Shown: positions 1 to 30,797 of the stretch, piece by piece
Position numbering within the stretch: position 1 is the stretch's first letter
Layout: each line of letters opens with the position of its first letter
Source: Propionispira arboris
GTDB lineage: Bacteria > Bacillota > Negativicutes > Selenomonadales > Selenomonadaceae
DNA: 64,000 nt
Assembly: GCF_900109225.1 (NCBI RefSeq)
Contig: NZ_FNZK01000004.1
Coordinates: forward strand, 62,001 to 126,000
Direction: 5' to 3'
Notes under the pieces: model-generated
Told to the model about the DNA's origin: nothing
Seen by the model: the letters and a program-made list of their open reading frames with translations, nothing else
The model's database searches: none
Program-made: the position numbers and the translations under genes

Positions 1-159
1 TTAGAGAAAATTTGGGGCTATGAATATTATGGTGATACACGTACGGTAGATGTTCATATTCGTCATCTTCGGGCCAAACTTGCCGAAGTTCCCAAAATAA
101 GTGATGCGATTGAAACCGTGCGCGGTGTGGGCTATCGTTTTGCCATGAAAGATAAATAA
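1..159 (+). CDS. Response regulator, C-terminal fragment (PhoB/PhoP type, OmpR family)
   Basis: The window opens inside this gene; 52 residues remain. They match the second half of an OmpR/PhoB winged helix: the recognition-helix segment [15 protein letters not shown] is followed by the wing motif VRGVGYRFA, ending at a TAA stop. The receiver domain lies outside the window. The neighbours downstream are pstB, phoU and a PhoR-type kinase, so the natural reading is the phosphate-starvation regulator that would bind the Pho repeats at 213 and 3670. That identity is inferred from context because the fragment alone fits any OmpR-family regulator. Confidence 0.85.
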
Positions 160-169
160 ACATCAGTCA

Positions 170-214
170 AACAAGGTATAGACAGTTTAAATTTGTCTAT
201 ACCTTGTTTTTGTT
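170..214 (+). terminator. Intrinsic terminator after the response regulator
   Basis: A perfect 15-bp stem (170-184 with 194-208) with a 9-nt loop is followed by a T-rich tail. It separates the regulator transcript from the pstB promoter, whose first Pho repeat overlaps the tail. Confidence 0.85.
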
Positions 215-266
215 TACAAAAACTTAACATTTGCTTAACAACCTGTATTTAGTGGTATGGTATATT
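213..266 (+). promoter_or_regulatory. Pho box and promoter of pstB-phoU
   Basis: Three hexamers lie exactly 11 bp apart: TTTACA at 213, TTAACA at 224 and TTAACA at 235. A candidate -10, TATATT, lies at 261-266, 26 bp from the start of the third repeat. No normal -35 is seen, as expected for a PhoP/PhoB-activated promoter whose repeats replace it. The same geometry is found ahead of pstS (3670) and of the sensor kinase at 26152. Confidence 0.8.
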
Positions 267-301
267 TCCTATAGCGAGTTTTTTGACTGGAGGAAATGAT
301 T

Positions 302-1057
302 ATGGATTATAAAATGCAGGTGAAGAAGCTGAACTTATATTACGGTGAATCACAGGCACTAAAAAATGTATCGCTTGTCGTGAACCCACATTCAGTTGTG
401 GCACTGATTGGTCCATCTGGCTGCGGTAAATCAACATTTTTGAAAACACTGAATCGGATGAATGATTTAATTGAACACGTGCGGATTGAAGGAGAAGTTT
501 CACTCGACGGTGTTAACATATATCAACCAGATACAGATGTCGTGTATCTTAGAAAACGCGTTGGTATGGTTTTCCAGCGCCCCAATCCATTTCCTATGTC
601 AATTTATGATAATATTGCGTATGGTCCCCGAATTCATGGGATAACCAACAAAGTGTTGATTGATGAAATTGTCGAACGCAGTCTTAAAGGAGCTGCTCTT
701 TGGGAAGAAGTGAAAAATCGCCTTTCGGCATCGGCTATGGGGATGTCCGGGGGGCAGCAACAGAGACTTTGTATTGCCAGAGTCCTTGCTGTTGAACCAG
801 AAGTACTTCTGATGGATGAACCATGTTCAGCACTTGATCCGATTTCGACTATGAAAATTGAAGAATTAGTGGCTGAATTAAAAGCAAAATATACAATAGT
901 CATGGTTACGCATAATATGCAGCAGGCGGCCCGTGTTTCCGATTATACGGGTTTTTTCTTAAATGGTGAATTGATTGAACATGATCTGACAAATGTGATT
1001 TTCACAAAACCAGCGAATAAAAAAACAGAAGATTATATTACGGGTCGTTTTGGTTGA
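302..1057 (+). CDS. pstB: Phosphate ABC transporter ATP-binding protein PstB
   Basis: This is the ATPase that powers high-affinity phosphate import by PstSCA. The 251-residue protein has Walker [10 protein letters not shown] near residue 37, the signature MSGGQQQR near 147 and Walker B VLLMDEP near 169, with the closely conserved PstB stretch [16 protein letters not shown] between them. An in-frame ATG lies 6 bp upstream at 296, but only 2 nt separate it from the GGAGG at 289-293, whereas the ATG at 302 has 8 nt, so 302 is chosen. Unusually, pstB and phoU precede the rest of the pst genes and are cut off from them by a reversed phoR. Confidence 0.96.
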
Positions 1058-3669: not shown

Positions 3670-3723
3670 TTAACAATTTCTTAACAAACCCTTAACATCA
3701 AAACGGAGTCTCTACGCTAGAAT
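3670..3723 (+). promoter_or_regulatory. Pho box and promoter of pstSCA
   Basis: Three perfect TTAACA hexamers start at 3670, 3681 and 3692, an exact 11-bp period. The candidate -10 TAGAAT starts at 3718, 26 bp after the third repeat starts. This is the cleanest of the three Pho-type promoters in the window. Confidence 0.88.
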
Positions 3724-24125: not shown

Positions 24126-24237
24126 ATTATATAAACAAAACGTTGATAACAAAATAATAATCAACATAAAATTGAAATAAATATTGATATTAAACATTTT
24201 GTTGATTAAAATAAAATAAAGATCAATATAATGTTGA
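24126..24237. promoter_or_regulatory. Array of four 15-bp operators between divergent promoters
   Basis: Four sites fit TMAAYAWWWYGTTGA or close to it: TAAACAAAACGTTGA (24132), TCAACATAAAATTGA (24161), TAAACATTTTGTTGA (24191) and TCAATATAATGTTGA (24223). Their centres are 29, 30 and 32 bp apart, about three helical turns. The first sits next to the minus-strand TATAAT (24126-24131) of the repressor gene; the last contains the TATAAT (24227-24232) of the 94-residue gene and the third overlaps its -35 region. Confidence 0.78.
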
Positions 24238-24241
24238 AAAT

Positions 24242-24539
24242 GGAGGGTGAATTATGGATATTTTTGAAATAATAACAGAAGCATTACGAAATGTGCATGA
24301 TGGCAAAAATTTAGAAGATGTATCGAACCTTTATAGTAAATTGTATGCAGAGAATAATCAAATGGTTGATATTCTTGATAAAACGTTAGTCGGAGAAGAT
24401 TTGAAAGTATTTCATTATTTATGTGATAATTTTTCGTACAGAGAAGTGACGGCAGAAGATATATATTATAACCAAGGGTTTTCGGATGCGATAAAGCTTA
24501 TAGTTCAGTCTATGTTATGGTCGCCGGTACGAAGGTGAA
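24242..24539 (+). repeat. Direct repeat copy A (94-residue gene)
   Basis: Bases 24242-24510 are identical to 25692-25960. Only three differences follow before the stop (24511, 24515, 24526), and similarity ends right after it. The repeat begins at the Shine-Dalgarno sequence, so the duplicated unit is the gene with its ribosome site but without its promoter. Confidence 0.95.
24254..24538 (+). CDS. 94-residue helical protein, DUF6809-like, copy 1
   Basis: The protein is acidic and predicted helical, with no signal peptide, and ends ...YNQGFSDAIKLIVQSM followed by LWSPVRR. The GFxxAxxLIxxSM tail recalls DUF6809 proteins, small proteins of unknown function commonly found next to XRE regulators in Firmicutes; this match is from memory and tentative. 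GGAGGG lies upstream. It is divergent from XRE module 1 and its promoter lies inside that operator array. Confidence 0.7.
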   Translation: MDIFEIITEALRNVHDGKNLEDVSNLYSKLYAENNQMVDILDKTLVGEDLKVFHYLCDNFSYREVTAEDIYYNQGFSDAIKLIVQSMLWSPVRR

Positions 24540-25633: not shown

Positions 25634-25691
25634 CTATGGCTGAGCATTACTTGCTTATACGGGCTAACAATTAAAAAATTTACTAAAAACA

Positions 25692-25989
25692 GGAGGGTGA
25701 ATTATGGATATTTTTGAAATAATAACAGAAGCATTACGAAATGTGCATGATGGCAAAAATTTAGAAGATGTATCGAACCTTTATAGTAAATTGTATGCAG
25801 AGAATAATCAAATGGTTGATATTCTTGATAAAACGTTAGTCGGAGAAGATTTGAAAGTATTTCATTATTTATGTGATAATTTTTCGTACAGAGAAGTGAC
25901 GGCAGAAGATATATATTATAACCAAGGGTTTTCGGATGCGATAAAGCTTATAGTTCAGTCCATGGTATGGTCGCCAGTACGAAGGTGAA
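25692..25989 (+). repeat. Direct repeat copy B (94-residue gene)
   Basis: Partner of 24242-24539, offset 1450 bp, with the differences listed there. Confidence 0.95.
25704..25988 (+). CDS. 94-residue helical protein, DUF6809-like, copy 2
   Basis: The protein is the same as copy 1 except for one residue near the end (VWSPVRR in place of LWSPVRR). The upstream region is unrelated to that of copy 1 beyond the Shine-Dalgarno sequence, so the two copies are under different XRE regulators. Near-identity at the DNA level shows a recent duplication or gene conversion. Confidence 0.7.
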   Translation: MDIFEIITEALRNVHDGKNLEDVSNLYSKLYAENNQMVDILDKTLVGEDLKVFHYLCDNFSYREVTAEDIYYNQGFSDAIKLIVQSMVWSPVRR

Positions 25990-26011: not shown

Positions 26012-26065
26012 TTAACTTAAAATTAATATATTGTTAACGAACTGTTAAACTTTTAAAAGTATACT
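26012..26065 (+). promoter_or_regulatory. Pho-type promoter of the phosphorelay operon
   Basis: Hexamers at exact 11-bp steps read TTAACT (26012), TTAATA (26023) and TTAACG (26034), each one base from TTAACA. A TATACT -10 starts at 26060, again 26 bp from the start of the third repeat, as at pstB and pstS. A further TTAAAC at 26045 keeps the phase. Regulation by the phosphate regulator is inferred from this shared geometry. Confidence 0.65.
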
Positions 26066-26151
26066 ATAAGCATGATGATCATTCAATAAAAATGGAGAGG
26101 AAAACGATTTTTATTTGATTACTATAATAAAACAGTGTAGGAGGTTTGCTA

Positions 26152-29100
26152 ATGAAACAGCTGCTTGAGCCTGCAGTTCAAATAATGAATCGATTGAAAT
26201 ATGCTTATAAATTTGGCATGATTGGCTTATTGATTGTATTGCAGGCAGCTGTATTAATTTATATGCTGGTATCGGAATTAAATAAAAATATCGATTTTGC
26301 CATTCGGGAACGAGGGGGCATTGAATACGTCACCAAGCTGACGGATTTATTTAATGAGGCCCAGGCATATCGCAATATCCAGTATGATTTTTCTCATGGC
26401 AATAAAGTACCGCCGGAGGATGTGCTGGCTCAGCAAGCGAAAGTGGATGAAACGTTGGCTGCGGTGGAAGCAGTCGATAAGCAGACAGCGGGTCAAATGG
26501 ATACAACTTGGAAATTGCAGATTGTACAGCAGGATTGGTTGACGCGTAAAGCAGAAACGCTGCAGTCTGATACTGGTCGCGCGCAGCTTGTATTTGATTT
26601 GGACAGCCGCTGGATTAGTGAAATAACGGATTTGATGCAGCATGTTGGTTATGAGTCAAATCTAGCTATGGATTCTGATTTTGACACATCCTATCTAGTT
26701 GATTCCGTATTGCGCAAATTACCGAAAACGGCGGAGACCGTAAGTATGGCGCAGGGACTATCTATTCAATTGTATGAGGGCAATGTTTCTTCGACTAGCC
26801 GAAACCAAATACTGCAAGTTGCGGGGTTGATGCGTTCTAGTTTGGAACAGACAACAGGCGCAGCCAATAAGGTATTTCGTCATAATCCGAAAATAAAGTT
26901 TGAGTTGGAAAAATTACAGACTCCAGTTACTGAATTAGTGCCGATTTTTGCTTGGAATATTGAGCAAAAAACAGTTGGACAGCAGGGGTTGCCGGTTCCT
27001 AAGCAATTATTGACTACGATGGGAAAGCATTCGATTGAAAATATTGAGGCATTACATAAAGCGGAATTAGTTGCTATTGATCAGGAACTTGTTTTACGGA
27101 TCAACCAATATTTACAATATCGAAACCTCGTAATCGTCTTTATTGTAGGCATCTTGTTGTTGGTTTGTTATCTTTTCATGGGCTTTGATATGTCAGTTCG
27201 TAAAGCTGTGTATCAGTTGTCAAAGGTCATGGCGAAGGTTGGAAATGGGGATTTAAGTGTTCGCGGTGAGATTTATTCACACGATGAGATGGGAGCACTG
27301 ACCCATTCAATTAACAATACATTGGATTCTTTGCAGAAAATGTATGAAGAAGTACAAGAATCTCATCTAAAGTTGGAAGAATGGAACCAAAAATTAGAGC
27401 AGAACATTGCAGCACGAACTGCATCTTTGCGAAACCTTCTTGATCATGCAGGACAGGGGTTTCTCTCTTTTGGTGAAGATCTATTGGTTAGTGGACAATA
27501 TAGTGCAGAGTGTACAACGATTTTCGCTCGGGAAATTGTGGGAGAATCAGTACCAGCGTTAATTTACCCCAATGATCGTGACCAACAGGTGTTCTTAGAG
27601 GCTATCTTTAAAAAGATTTTGGCTGAGAAAAACGAGTCTTTGCAAAACCCGTATTTTTCTTTGTTACCGGAAGAAATTGTCTTGGACAGTAGTTATATCG
27701 GGATGGCTTATAAATTGATTGACAATAAACAGGATACCAAAGAGCGCAGCATTATGCTGATTCTTACCGATTTGACATTGCAAAAGACAATGGAAGATAA
27801 CGTGCAGAAGGAACACGATATTTTGGCGATGATTGTGCATGTAGTAACGCATTCAGCTGATTTTTTTGCCGCCGTTAGTCAATATACAGATTTTTGTCAA
27901 GAAGGAATGCCGAGCTTGCTGAATGAGAAAAAGACAGCAAATGATATACTAGCAGCCATATTTCGGATGGTACATACCTTTAAAGGTACATTTGGACAAT
28001 TACATATGGCAAATATCATGGGGAAATTGCACGATATGGAGAGTATTCTGGCGAAAATTCGTTCCAAAGAACTTATGCAATTAGATAGCAAAGAGCTGAA
28101 AGAAAAGCTTAATGATTTTACATCATACGTTATGATTAACTGGCTCGAGGCAGACTTGAATTTGTTAAAAGAAAAACTGGGTGATGAATTTTTTCAGCAG
28201 GAAAATATGCTGATTGTTGATAATCAGCGATTGCTGGAAATCGAGGAGAAAGTAAAAAGAATCTTACCTTACGATGAATGCAATGTACTTTTGCCGGATT
28301 TACATCGGCTGCGATATCAGTCAATCAAAAAATTATTGCAGTCCTATCCGGAATATGTCACGTCTTTAGCTGAACGAAATGAGAAGGCTATCCAGTCTTT
28401 TGATATTGAAGGCAGTGATACACTTGTCGATCCTTTGCGATATAATGATTTTATAAAATCATTGGGTCATGTTTTTCGCAATTCCATCACGCATGGATTG
28501 GAGTCGTTTGAAGAGAGAGCGGAAAAAGGTAAGGATGAAATTGGTAAAATAACCTGTGCCATTAAAGAAAATTCATTGGGAATGACGATTGTTATATCCG
28601 ATGATGGAGCTGGAATGAATCCTGATCATATTCGCGAGGCTGCTGTCAAAAAAGGCATCTGTAGCGCAGAAGAAGCCCAGCGTATGGATGATACAGCGAG
28701 CATCATGTTGATCTTTGCAGATGGGTTTTCAGAGTCTAAAGATGTTAGTGAACTAGCCGGTCGTGGTGTTGGTCTTTCGGCAGTACGAGCGGAAGTGGAA
28801 AAATTGAATGGATCGGTGCAAGTTAATACAGTATGGGGTAAAGGTACGCAATTTGAATTTTTCTTACCATTTACACAAATTGAAGAACATCAATCTTATT
28901 CCATCAGACAGCTGGGAAATCCTCTGGTGCGGGCAACAGAAGCTTTGCTTAAGCAAAATACTGGGCTGCAGTTGAATAATTGCACATATATAGAATCTGC
29001 TGATGGCGGAAAATTAAAACTGCGCCAAGTGACCACGTTCTTAGGGATAAATGGAATAGGTAATTGTCGAATGGTGTTAAGCGCGGATCAGTCGGTTGTA

Positions 29101-29364
29101 AAATATTTAGCCGATGAGTATCCGCTGGAAGAAGCTAGTGACGGGACACCGGGGCAAAAACTTGAAACGATCTTATCGTATTATGCGAAGCAAATATTTG
29201 CGGATGCACTCAAAGAAGTACCAGAGTGGGTTGGGGTTGTTACAACAAAAGCCCTGGTTAGTATTGTGGCGGAAGATGCTTCAGCGAAGTATCCTCAGTC
29301 GGAAACACCAACTTGGCTGCTTGATACGGATTTGGGGAAAATTACGTTAAGTTTAGTATTTTAA
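26152..29364 (+). CDS. Large membrane sensor kinase with Hpt and CheA-like ATPase domains
   Basis: The 1070-residue protein has TM helices near 20-42 and 324-345 around a helical extracytoplasmic domain, then HAMP (to about 400), a coiled coil, a PAS-like region (about 420-545), an Hpt domain with HTFKGTFGQLH (phospho-His near 608), and a CheA-type ATPase with HVFRNSITHGLE (about 772), DDGAGM (816) and GRGVGLSAV (868). No CheW-like domain follows; instead residues 910-1070 (opening NPLVRATEALLKQNTG) look like a CheX/CheC fold without the ExxN phosphatase motif. TAGGAGG is 7 nt from the ATG at 26152; an in-frame TTG at 26146 is too close. It heads an operon with a CheY and a CheX-like gene. 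Confidence 0.83.
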   Translation: MKQLLEPAVQIMNRLKYAYKFGMIGLLIVLQAAVLIYMLVSELNKNIDFAIRERGGIEYVTKLTDLFNEAQAYRNIQYDFSHGNKVPPEDVLAQQAKVDETLAAVEAVDKQTAGQMDTTWKLQIVQQDWLTRKAETLQSDTGRAQLVFDLDSRWISEITDLMQHVGYESNLAMDSDFDTSYLVDSVLRKLPKTAETVSMAQGLSIQLYEGNVSSTSRNQILQVAGLMRSSLEQTTGAANKVFRHNPKIKFELEKLQTPVTELVPIFAWNIEQKTVGQQGLPVPKQLLTTMGKHSIENIEALHKAELVAIDQELVLRINQYLQYRNLVIVFIVGILLLVCYLFMGFDMSVRKAVYQLSKVMAKVGNGDLSVRGEIYSHDEMGALTHSINNTLDSLQKMYEEVQESHLKLEEWNQKLEQNIAARTASLRNLLDHAGQGFLSFGEDLLVSGQYSAECTTIFAREIVGESVPALIYPNDRDQQVFLEAIFKKILAEKNESLQNPYFSLLPEEIVLDSSYIGMAYKLIDNKQDTKERSIMLILTDLTLQKTMEDNVQKEHDILAMIVHVVTHSADFFAAVSQYTDFCQEGMPSLLNEKKTANDILAAIFRMVHTFKGTFGQLHMANIMGKLHDMESILAKIRSKELMQLDSKELKEKLNDFTSYVMINWLEADLNLLKEKLGDEFFQQENMLIVDNQRLLEIEEKVKRILPYDECNVLLPDLHRLRYQSIKKLLQSYPEYVTSLAERNEKAIQSFDIEGSDTLVDPLRYNDFIKSLGHVFRNSITHGLESFEERAEKGKDEIGKITCAIKENSLGMTIVISDDGAGMNPDHIREAAVKKGICSAEEAQRMDDTASIMLIFADGFSESKDVSELAGRGVGLSAVRAEVEKLNGSVQVNTVWGKGTQFEFFLPFTQIEEHQSYSIRQLGNPLVRATEALLKQNTGLQLNNCTYIESADGGKLKLRQVTTFLGINGIGNCRMVLSADQSVVKYLADEYPLEEASDGTPGQKLETILSYYAKQIFADALKEVPEWVGVVTTKALVSIVAEDASAKYPQSETPTWLLDTDLGKITLSLVF

Positions 29365-29404
29365 TGCTAATAAAAATATGTAAAATTAAGAGGGGAAGAT
29401 TAAC

Positions 29405-29788
29405 ATGGCACGGATTATGATTGTTGATGACTCTATGATGATGAGAAACACATTGCGCAGAATACTTGAAAAAGCAGGACATGCGGTGGTTGAAGAAGCA
29501 GTAAATGGTCAACAGGCGATTGACAATTACCCAAAATGTCTGCCGGATTTAGTAACGATGGATATCACAATGCCAGGATTAAGTGGAATTGATGCCCTAA
29601 AGGGGATTTTAGAGTATGATCCACAGGCAAATATTATAGCGGTAAGTGCCTTAGGTCAAAAGCATATCGTTTTTGAAGCTTTGCAAAATGGGGCAAAAAA
29701 TTATGTTTTAAAGCCAATTCATGAAGATAAATTATTATCGGTTCTGGAAATGGTATTGGAGCAGAACGGTTTTGCCGAATCGCATTGA
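29405..29788 (+). CDS. CheY-like single-domain response regulator
   Basis: The 127-residue receiver has the acidic pair in IVDDSMMMRNTLRRIL, the phospho-Asp D53 in TMDITMPGLSG, Ser in VSALGQ and K103 in LKPI. It has no output domain. It lies between the Hpt kinase and the CheX-like protein, so it is the expected acceptor of phosphate from the kinase and the substrate of the next gene product. Its target is unknown. Confidence 0.92.
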   Translation: MARIMIVDDSMMMRNTLRRILEKAGHAVVEEAVNGQQAIDNYPKCLPDLVTMDITMPGLSGIDALKGILEYDPQANIIAVSALGQKHIVFEALQNGAKNYVLKPIHEDKLLSVLEMVLEQNGFAESH

Positions 29789-29846
29789 TTTTGTGAAATG
29801 CAAGCTTGTTATACATGTTTCTTAAAGGAAGAGAGGGCGATATAGT

Positions 29847-30725
29847 ATGCTAAATCAGTATTTCGGACATTATTTATTAAATAAAGGAATTCTGAACAAT
29901 GTTCAGCTGCGTGAGGTATTAGATGCTGAACGGAGTGTTAAGGTTAAACTAGGTCTGCTTGCTGTTAACGTTGGGGTGATGACTGCGGCACAAGTTGAAG
30001 ATATTCATAATTTGCAGCGGACAAGAGATCAAAGATTTGGTGACTTGGCAGTAGCGATGGGGTTTCTGACAAGTGTGCAGGTCGACCAGTTATTGACTTC
30101 ACAGCAAGAAGGACATCTTAGTATTATGCAAGCCATAACCGACAAAAATTATATGACATTGAGCGCGGTCGAAACTGCATTAAGTGATTTTCGTGAGGAA
30201 TATGGCATAACTACAAGCGATGCAGAGACGGAAGATGAAACAGAAATTATTAAGAAATTGGTGGACTTTTCCTCAGCCGCTGATAAAGCGGATTTACTAT
30301 ATAATTATGTGGGCTTGATAAAGCGTAATGCAGTCCGGTTCTTAGATGATCCGTCTTTCATTTTTATACAAAATAGTACAGGTAAAGCAGCGCAGTCAAA
30401 ATGGTTCGTTTCGCAGCAGATCATTGGAGATATCACTTTGTCGGCGGGCTTCCTCATGGAAGAATCTGTTCTTTTAGAAATTGCAGCTCGTTTTTATGGT
30501 GAGAAACTTACGCGCGTTGATGAACTGGCGTTGGATAGTGTGGGCGAATTTTTGAATGTTAATAATGGTGTTTTTTGCAGTTCCTTATCTGATCGCGGAC
30601 TTATGACGGATTTACAACCGCCGGTTGTTATTAAGCAAGATGGTGAGATAGACAAAGCTGTCAATTATCGTGTAAACACAGCCACTTCTTTTGGTGATTT
30701 TGAAATTATATTATCTTTGGCGTAA
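29847..30725 (+). CDS. CheX-like phosphatase with repeated N-terminal domain
   Basis: This 292-residue protein has an N-terminal half (1-130) made of helical repeats such as YLLNKGILNNVQLREVL and DLAVAMGFLTSVQVDQLL, similar to the MshEN/type II secretion ATPase N-domain. The C-terminal half (about 150-292) resembles CheX/CheC: GDITLSAGFLMEE followed by SVGEFLNVNNG, which supplies the E234-x2-N237 pair used by CheX to remove phosphate from CheY. It closes the operon before a terminator at 30748. Assignment rests on motif and context. Confidence 0.72.
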   Translation: MLNQYFGHYLLNKGILNNVQLREVLDAERSVKVKLGLLAVNVGVMTAAQVEDIHNLQRTRDQRFGDLAVAMGFLTSVQVDQLLTSQQEGHLSIMQAITDKNYMTLSAVETALSDFREEYGITTSDAETEDETEIIKKLVDFSSAADKADLLYNYVGLIKRNAVRFLDDPSFIFIQNSTGKAAQSKWFVSQQIIGDITLSAGFLMEESVLLEIAARFYGEKLTRVDELALDSVGEFLNVNNGVFCSSLSDRGLMTDLQPPVVIKQDGEIDKAVNYRVNTATSFGDFEIILSLA

Positions 30726-30747: not shown

Positions 30748-30797
30748 AAAAATGTTGAAGTAAGCAAAAATAAAATTGCTTGCTTCAACATTTTTTT
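30748..30797 (+). terminator. Terminator of the phosphorelay operon
   Basis: A 19-bp stem with one G-U pair (30748-30766 with 30777-30795) runs into seven T. Confidence 0.85.

Follow-up and report, generated by a model that had tools for sequence, protein, structure and literature searches.

Nutrient starvation alters the amount of ordinary chemotaxis machinery that bacteria produce. In Pseudomonas, chemotaxis-type signalling made at low phosphate involves CtpL and CtpH, which are receptors feeding a normal CheA (PMC4926252). In this study we focus on an operon (26152-30725) in a 64,000-nucleotide stretch of Propionispira arboris DNA (contig NZ_FNZK01000004.1, positions 62,001 to 126,000, hereafter the window), which encodes a membrane kinase, a lone CheY and a CheX protein behind a promoter of phosphate-starvation type. 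We consider it likely, from the sequence, that this operon is a member of the Pho regulon making a stand-alone phosphorelay, with the flagellar motor as its most likely output. To our knowledge, no earlier description exists of a complete, separate kinase-CheY-phosphatase relay placed under PhoP, or of such a relay with a sister under Fur.

The Pho boxes reviewed for PhoB/PhoP-type regulators (PMC4415409) are likewise 11-base-pair (bp) direct repeats lying over the -35 region, ahead of pst, ugp, phn and phosphatase genes. Here, in contrast, the repeats follow a TTAACA consensus and stand before a signalling relay; chemotaxis is unmentioned in that review. With CheA-CheY-CheX chemotaxis the operon shares Hpt phosphotransfer, a CheA-type P4 domain, CheY, and a CheX carrying the ExxN motif. 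Unlike CheA, however, its kinase has its own membrane sensor and HAMP domain and lacks the CheW/P5 and P2 domains, so that the usual route into a receptor array is closed to it, and unlike chemotaxis operons the relay operon contains no receptor, CheW, CheR or CheB gene. The CheA-CheC/CheX fusions of Leptospirae (PMC10782961) also join a CheX-type phosphatase domain to a CheA-type kinase, but they are true CheA proteins with P5, whereas in kinases of the type described here (Pho-type kinases, after their promoter) the fused domain lacks ExxN and a separate, active-type CheX is encoded. The sensor of CtpL (PMC4926252) is, like that of our kinase, large and helical (about 286 amino acids), the likeness drawn here being one of size and helicity.

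The MshEN receptor domain (PMC5013675) is built of 24-residue motifs with 5-residue spacers, as is the N-terminus of the CheX protein, which differs in having three motifs instead of two, partly degenerate. Wang et al. (PMC5013675) list MshEN joined to CheX and to CheA among its architectures, and state that perfect motif conservation may not be required. Our searches of the open literature found no report of a PhoP- or Fur-controlled CheA-like relay and no characterised MshEN-CheX protein, absence there not being proof. Pho-regulon membership and a chemotaxis-like relay are thus known kinds of thing; their pairing, and the Fur-controlled sister, are so far undescribed.

The promoter and its conservation

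Three TTAACA-like hexamers at 11-bp steps and a -10 hexamer precede the operon (Table 1). An earlier note on this DNA had given their coordinates and matched the layout to the pstB and pstS promoters of the same window; both proved right to the base, and each operon hexamer is indeed one base off TTAACA. On the + strand ahead of the operon, the promoter prediction lists no sigma-70-type promoter with a -35, and an activator-dependent start is expected to look so. The promoter scored 25.3 on a weight matrix trained solely on phosphate-gene sites, a value reached by none of 2000 dinucleotide shuffles. The fourth in-phase hexamer is not conserved in orthologue promoters and is probably dispensable. 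A minus-strand reading of an exact TTAACA pair (26032-26048) was rejected, this pair being an unconserved near-palindrome of the same site.

The motif was then placed in the context of the 4.26-Mb Propionispira genome (G000; labels with G, C and L are our own for genomes, contigs and loci). The whole genome was searched for three TTAACA spaced by 11-bp steps, then N20 and TANNNT, with up to three mismatches; this gave 14 matches, and the reversed-pattern control none. Ten of the 13 companion sites stand before genes of evident phosphate function. These are pstS; pstB; a UgpB relative with ugp genes behind it; a UgpA relative; an exopolyphosphatase (ppx) with a polyphosphate-kinase-like gene (ppk) behind it; an aminoethylphosphonate transporter with PhnW and PhnX behind it, both above curated cut-offs; a relative of PhnS2; PhoH; a purple acid phosphatase; and lastly a secreted HAD-type phosphatase, known from the sequence alone and lacking a family match. 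The other three are unclear and lie at an HD-domain protein, at a TIM-barrel protein near the phosphonate cluster, and at C36:142826, which looks like a chance match. Because the companion genes genome-wide are mostly phosphate genes, the search identifies the three-TTAACA motif, at the sequence level, as the Pho box of Propionispira, and this assignment does not depend on the two window sites alone. The phosphate-type promoter proposed in the earlier note is supported in the same way, its layout being the one that precedes pst, ugp, phn, ppx-ppk, phoH and phosphatase genes. The result yields a Negativicutes Pho-box model (three TTAACA, 11-bp pitch, -10 at 26 bp) for annotating the phosphate regulon. 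The HD-domain protein (L126:3877-5097, G000:C15) is secreted-looking and stands behind a good Pho box with two mismatches; it is possibly a new phosphohydrolase of the Pho regulon.

Full-length orthologues of the kinase were found in 12 searched genomes from seven genera, with 50-98% identity, the counterpart in P. raffinosivorans DSM 20765 being 98% identical. The earlier note had staked its reading on the 11-bp repeats recurring upstream of orthologues, and three hexamers at 11-bp steps are present in 12 of the 12 genomes. They read TTAACA/TTAACT/TTCACC in a Massilibacillus metagenome-assembled genome (MAG), TTAACA/TTAACA/TACACC in the CTSoil MAG, TTAATA/ATTACA/TTTACA in Sporomusa KB1 (G306), GTAACA/TTAACC/ATCACG in G047, TTAACC/TTTACT/TTCACC in G046 and three relatives, and TTAATA/TTAACC followed by TTAACG or TTAATC in G314 and G315. 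Moreover, in six of the seven genera the -10 follows the third repeat at exactly 26 bp. The pstS promoters of ten orthologue genomes besides the window genome, which were located by gene and not by pattern (the G037 pstS locus being left out), carry these boxes too, and their -10 follows at 26 bp, or at 27 bp in two cases.

The kinase promoters score 8.8 to 25.3 on the Pho matrix, and in no case did any of 2000 dinucleotide shuffles of the region reach its score. Across 357 real upstream regions, best scores have a median of -9 and a 95th percentile of 15.1, the upper tail consisting mostly of phosphate genes and these kinase promoters. An interrupted gene for a long-type kinase in G304 (L115) likewise has a Pho site, scoring 19.6, before it. 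Taken at the level of sequence, the operon promoter is very probably a Pho promoter controlled by PhoP, whose binding we infer, while the layout and its conservation are read directly from the DNA. The case made here points to phosphate-dependent control of operon expression, as distinct from phosphate starvation being a signal that the relay itself receives.

Two orthologue neighbourhoods carry further Pho-like sites. In G314, an MGDG-synthase-type (monogalactosyldiacylglycerol) glycosyltransferase near the kinase operon (L117:4125-5276 / L050:12048-13199) has its own Pho box, scoring 26.5, and likely serves lipid remodelling at low phosphate. In G315 (L051:3173-6325), a PhoH-type gene stands upstream of the kinase operon in divergent orientation, and another neighbour, L051:3173-4297, has a Pho-like site of 22.9; the region is a local phosphate cluster.

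The operon and its proteins

The three genes are co-directional, with gaps of 40 and 58 bp, and the hairpin behind them likely terminates the operon. The Hpt motif of the kinase, HTFKG (HTWKG in the sister clade described below), and the N, G1 and G2 boxes of its ATPase are conserved family-wide; by Pfam the Hpt domain scores 20.6 bits, under the cut-off of 24.6, which sister kinases exceed. In the AlphaFold model, whose mean predicted local distance difference test (pLDDT) value is 68.5, the ATPase compares in fold with CheA P4 (1i58; Z 23.3, root mean square deviation (rmsd) 1.8 over 175 residues) and the C-terminal domain with CheX (3hm4; Z 14.9, rmsd 3.4 over 145 residues). Residues 686-908 align with CheA P3P4 (4xiv) over 215 residues, P3 having no Pfam match. 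Pfam finds no CheW domain in the kinase, and the CheX-like domain occupies the position of P5. Since P5 belongs to the four domains by which CheA is defined (PMC10782961), we do not file the kinase as a CheA, though to judge from its sequence it should work like one.

Pfam gave no significant match for the sensor, the PAS region or the C-terminal domain of the kinase. The last was settled as CheX-like by its fold and by sister kinases that pass the Pfam CheX cut-off. For the sensor, a sequence search against solved structures gave no match, and the best fold match is the NIT domain of NasR (4akk; Z 20.5, rmsd 3.9 over 273 residues), alike in fold but only 12% identical; as Z values of about 14 can arise between helical bundles from shared arrangement alone, we label it NIT-like only. 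The same sensor family is found in two chemoreceptors of G000 with MCP domains (L121:5595-7676 and L122:4033-6102; E 1.3e-18 and 7.1e-13), one of which lies near the aminoethylphosphonate transport cluster and its Pho boxes. No relatives were found in the viral contigs searched.

All receiver residues are present in the operon CheY. It shares 45-47% identity with its two closest CheY relatives elsewhere in the genome, one of which is encoded beside flagellar genes. In the protein of the third gene, the CheX domain matches CheX 3hm4 (Foldseek E 1.7e-9) and its EFLN motif is invariant, while every Pho-type kinase has lost ExxN in its own CheX domain (SYYAK, SHYAK and the like). Because of this loss, and of the extra CheX gene in the same clade, the sequences suggest that phosphatase activity shifted in Pho-type kinases' operons to a separately controllable CheX protein.

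The N-terminus of the CheX protein contains three 24-residue MshEN-type motifs with spacers of exactly 5 residues. It scores 52.2 bits (cut-off 38) on the NCBIfam c-di-GMP (cyclic di-guanosine monophosphate) motif model NF053729, its profile finds MshE with c-di-GMP (5htl, E 1.8e-5), and its model superimposes on 5htl at 1.0 Å (54 columns, 35% identity; Foldseek E 0.12 at a probability of 1.00). In motifs 2 and 3, Gln57, Gln86, Gly36 and Gly65 are invariant, and the position of the MshEN arginine is Lys/Arg at 34 and variable at 63. Judging by these motifs, the CheX protein is a putative receptor, with c-di-GMP binding likely. A weak DUF4388/PATAN match for the same region was superseded by the MshEN match. 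The chemotaxis-like phosphorelay of the earlier note finds support in these predicted domains and active-site residues; it had described kinase, CheY and CheX rightly, and had missed the C-terminal CheX-like domain of the kinase and the putative c-di-GMP-binding domain of the CheX protein.

Table 1 Features of the relay operon and its promoter, with the two reference promoters of the window (domain positions are residues of the kinase)
Feature	Position	Strand	Remark
Putative Pho-box repeat 1, TTAACT	26012..26017	+	from sequence; position conserved in orthologues
Putative Pho-box repeat 2, TTAATA	26023..26028	+	11 bp from repeat 1
Putative Pho-box repeat 3, TTAACG	26034..26039	+	11 bp from repeat 2, 26 bp before -10
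Fourth in-phase hexamer, TTAAAC	26045..26050	+	from sequence
-10 hexamer, TATACT	26060..26065	+	starts at third repeat + 26
Ribosome-binding site, AGGAGG	26139..26144	+	read from sequence
Membrane sensor kinase, 1070 amino acids	26152..29364	+	
Kinase, helical NIT-like sensor	residues about 33-330		
Kinase, HAMP	residues 355-395		
Kinase, PAS-like linker	residues about 425-545		
Kinase, Hpt			His608 in HTFKG
Kinase, CheA-type P4 ATPase	residues 721-908		ATPase domain match 770-908
Kinase, C-terminal CheX-like domain	residues 919-1070		without ExxN
Single-domain response regulator, CheY type, 127 amino acids	29405..29788	+	D8, D9, D53, S81, K103
MshEN-CheX fusion, 292 amino acids	29847..30725	+	MshEN-type repeats 5-28, 34-57, 63-86; CheX motif E234-F-L-N237
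Likely terminator	30748..30795	+	20-bp hairpin then T run; -25.2 kcal/mol, z -8.3
pstB promoter, reference site	213..266	+	same layout
pstS promoter, reference site	3670..3723	+	exact 3x TTAACA

Sister operons with Fur boxes

The kinase-family search also retrieved a related group with a short membrane sensor. At 11 sister loci (L060-L069, L074), from Sporomusa-like and other genera, a Fur-box-like 19-mer lies upstream; scored against the 19-mer GATAATGATAATCATTATC, these sites match at 14-19 of 19 positions, and with Pho-matrix scores of -16 to 2.3 none of the loci is Pho-like. Conversely, the Fur match of Pho-type kinase promoters is at most 13/19. No Fur box was found at the sister loci L073 (G123), L070 and L072. 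In the kinase-core tree the Pho-type kinases fall on one side of a branch supported at 84/93. The ten Fur-type kinases in the tree form a group that also takes in the Fur-box-less one of G123. Sporomusa sp. KB1 (G306) has one kinase of each kind. Promoter type follows kinase clade. Since it does so, and since both regulators answer nutrient starvation, the module would appear to be a starvation-specific relay.

Sister kinases that keep the CheX domain also keep ExxN (SEFFN, AEFFN, SEVCN), and five examined sister kinases are without a C-terminal CheX domain. Several of these sister kinase-CheY operons (neighbourhoods L104-L113) adjoin feoB or siderophore, ExbB/ExbD and TonB-type genes, as read from translations. 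As a tentative generalisation, somewhat less likely than not, Negativicutes may carry one-piece chemotaxis bypass modules under starvation regulators (PhoP for phosphate, Fur for iron), the phosphate version having moved its CheY phosphatase to a c-di-GMP-gated CheX. If this were true, nutrient hunger and the swim-or-settle messenger would meet at one CheY.

Proposed mechanism and alternative readings

In phosphate shortage, phosphorylated PhoP would sit on the three 11-bp repeats overlapping the -35 region and start transcription from a promoter that has a -10 and no usable -35. The kinase would read a periplasmic signal, its CheA-type ATPase would autophosphorylate His608 of the Hpt domain, and the phosphate would pass to Asp53 of the lone CheY. 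The separate CheX phosphatase would strip phosphorylated CheY, its MshEN-type domain probably letting c-di-GMP tune it. No CheW or receptor array would be needed because sensor and kinase are in one protein. The most likely output would be a second CheY signal to the flagellar motor, altering swimming in phosphate hunger. Domain content, active-site residues and gene order are read from the sequence, while the direction of phosphate flow, the c-di-GMP control and the motor output are what we infer; that the relay biochemistry is as proposed can be held with good confidence.

Several observations weigh against parts of this proposal. In G314 and G315 the repeats are kept and the -10 lies at 38 bp, 12 bp further than elsewhere; some training sites of the Pho matrix came from the same pattern as the genome search; and the Massilibacillus MAG operon is without a CheX gene. 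The first Arg and some of the hydrophobic positions of the MshEN motifs are degenerate, which makes c-di-GMP binding uncertain. As for the motor, FliM is common in the class anyway, so that finding the kinase family together with flagella tells little. Furthermore, fliM of G000 (C24:37600-38172) has an internal TAA stop and its cheA (L123:7778-9861, C24) is split into two frames, both genes being intact in the sister species G001. The interruptions are either decay of flagellar chemotaxis or an assembly error, and they make a motor output doubtful in this strain.

The motor is nevertheless our leading guess, since the operon CheY resembles flagellar CheY and FliM is present in 24 of the 25 genomes carrying the kinase family; we put it a little short of an even chance. 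We rate similarly, again just under even, a Pho-controlled relay whose phosphorylated CheY has another target, such as type IV pili, a c-di-GMP enzyme, an anti-sigma switch or development. Sister CheYs carry a C-terminal extension, with one weak STAS match (E 0.088), and the sister operon L114 lies directly behind a STAS-like gene, links which point to partner-switch outputs. Moreover, the CheX partner carries MshEN, which is known from pilus and secretion ATPases (PMC5013675), and the relay operon of G000 is intact while fliM and cheA are interrupted. Against such a target stand the same CheY identity and FliM distribution that favour the motor.

It is quite improbable that a different OmpR-family regulator, such as WalR, recognises the repeats. 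The WalR box, TGTWAH-N5-TGTWAH, has the same 11-bp pitch, and a perfect TGTTAA-N5-TGTTAA is found in the window site (26032-26048). This pattern, however, occurs only in Propionispira: it is absent at the conserved site in every distant orthologue and absent from pstB and pstS, whereas TTAACA-like repeats are conserved in all orthologues and 10 of the 13 companion sites are at phosphate genes. Lastly, the reading that AT-rich hexamers fell into line by chance in an intergenic region itself rich in AT, in keeping with the imperfection of each operon hexamer, is already refuted in practice by the conservation of a fixed geometry across seven genera, along with the absence of reversed-pattern matches and of shuffles reaching the score (0/2000).

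A PhoP-controlled stand-alone relay would offer a test bed for CheA-type kinases without receptor arrays, for c-di-GMP control of a CheY phosphatase and for the role of a lone CheY in starvation.

Region upstream of the operon

Just upstream of the operon, a 300-bp stretch is duplicated at 98% identity (24237-24536 / 25687-25986) and encodes a 94-amino-acid protein without a Pfam family. Each copy adjoins a small XRE-type regulator gene on the opposite strand. As P. raffinosivorans differs here, the region has the look of an accessory insertion.

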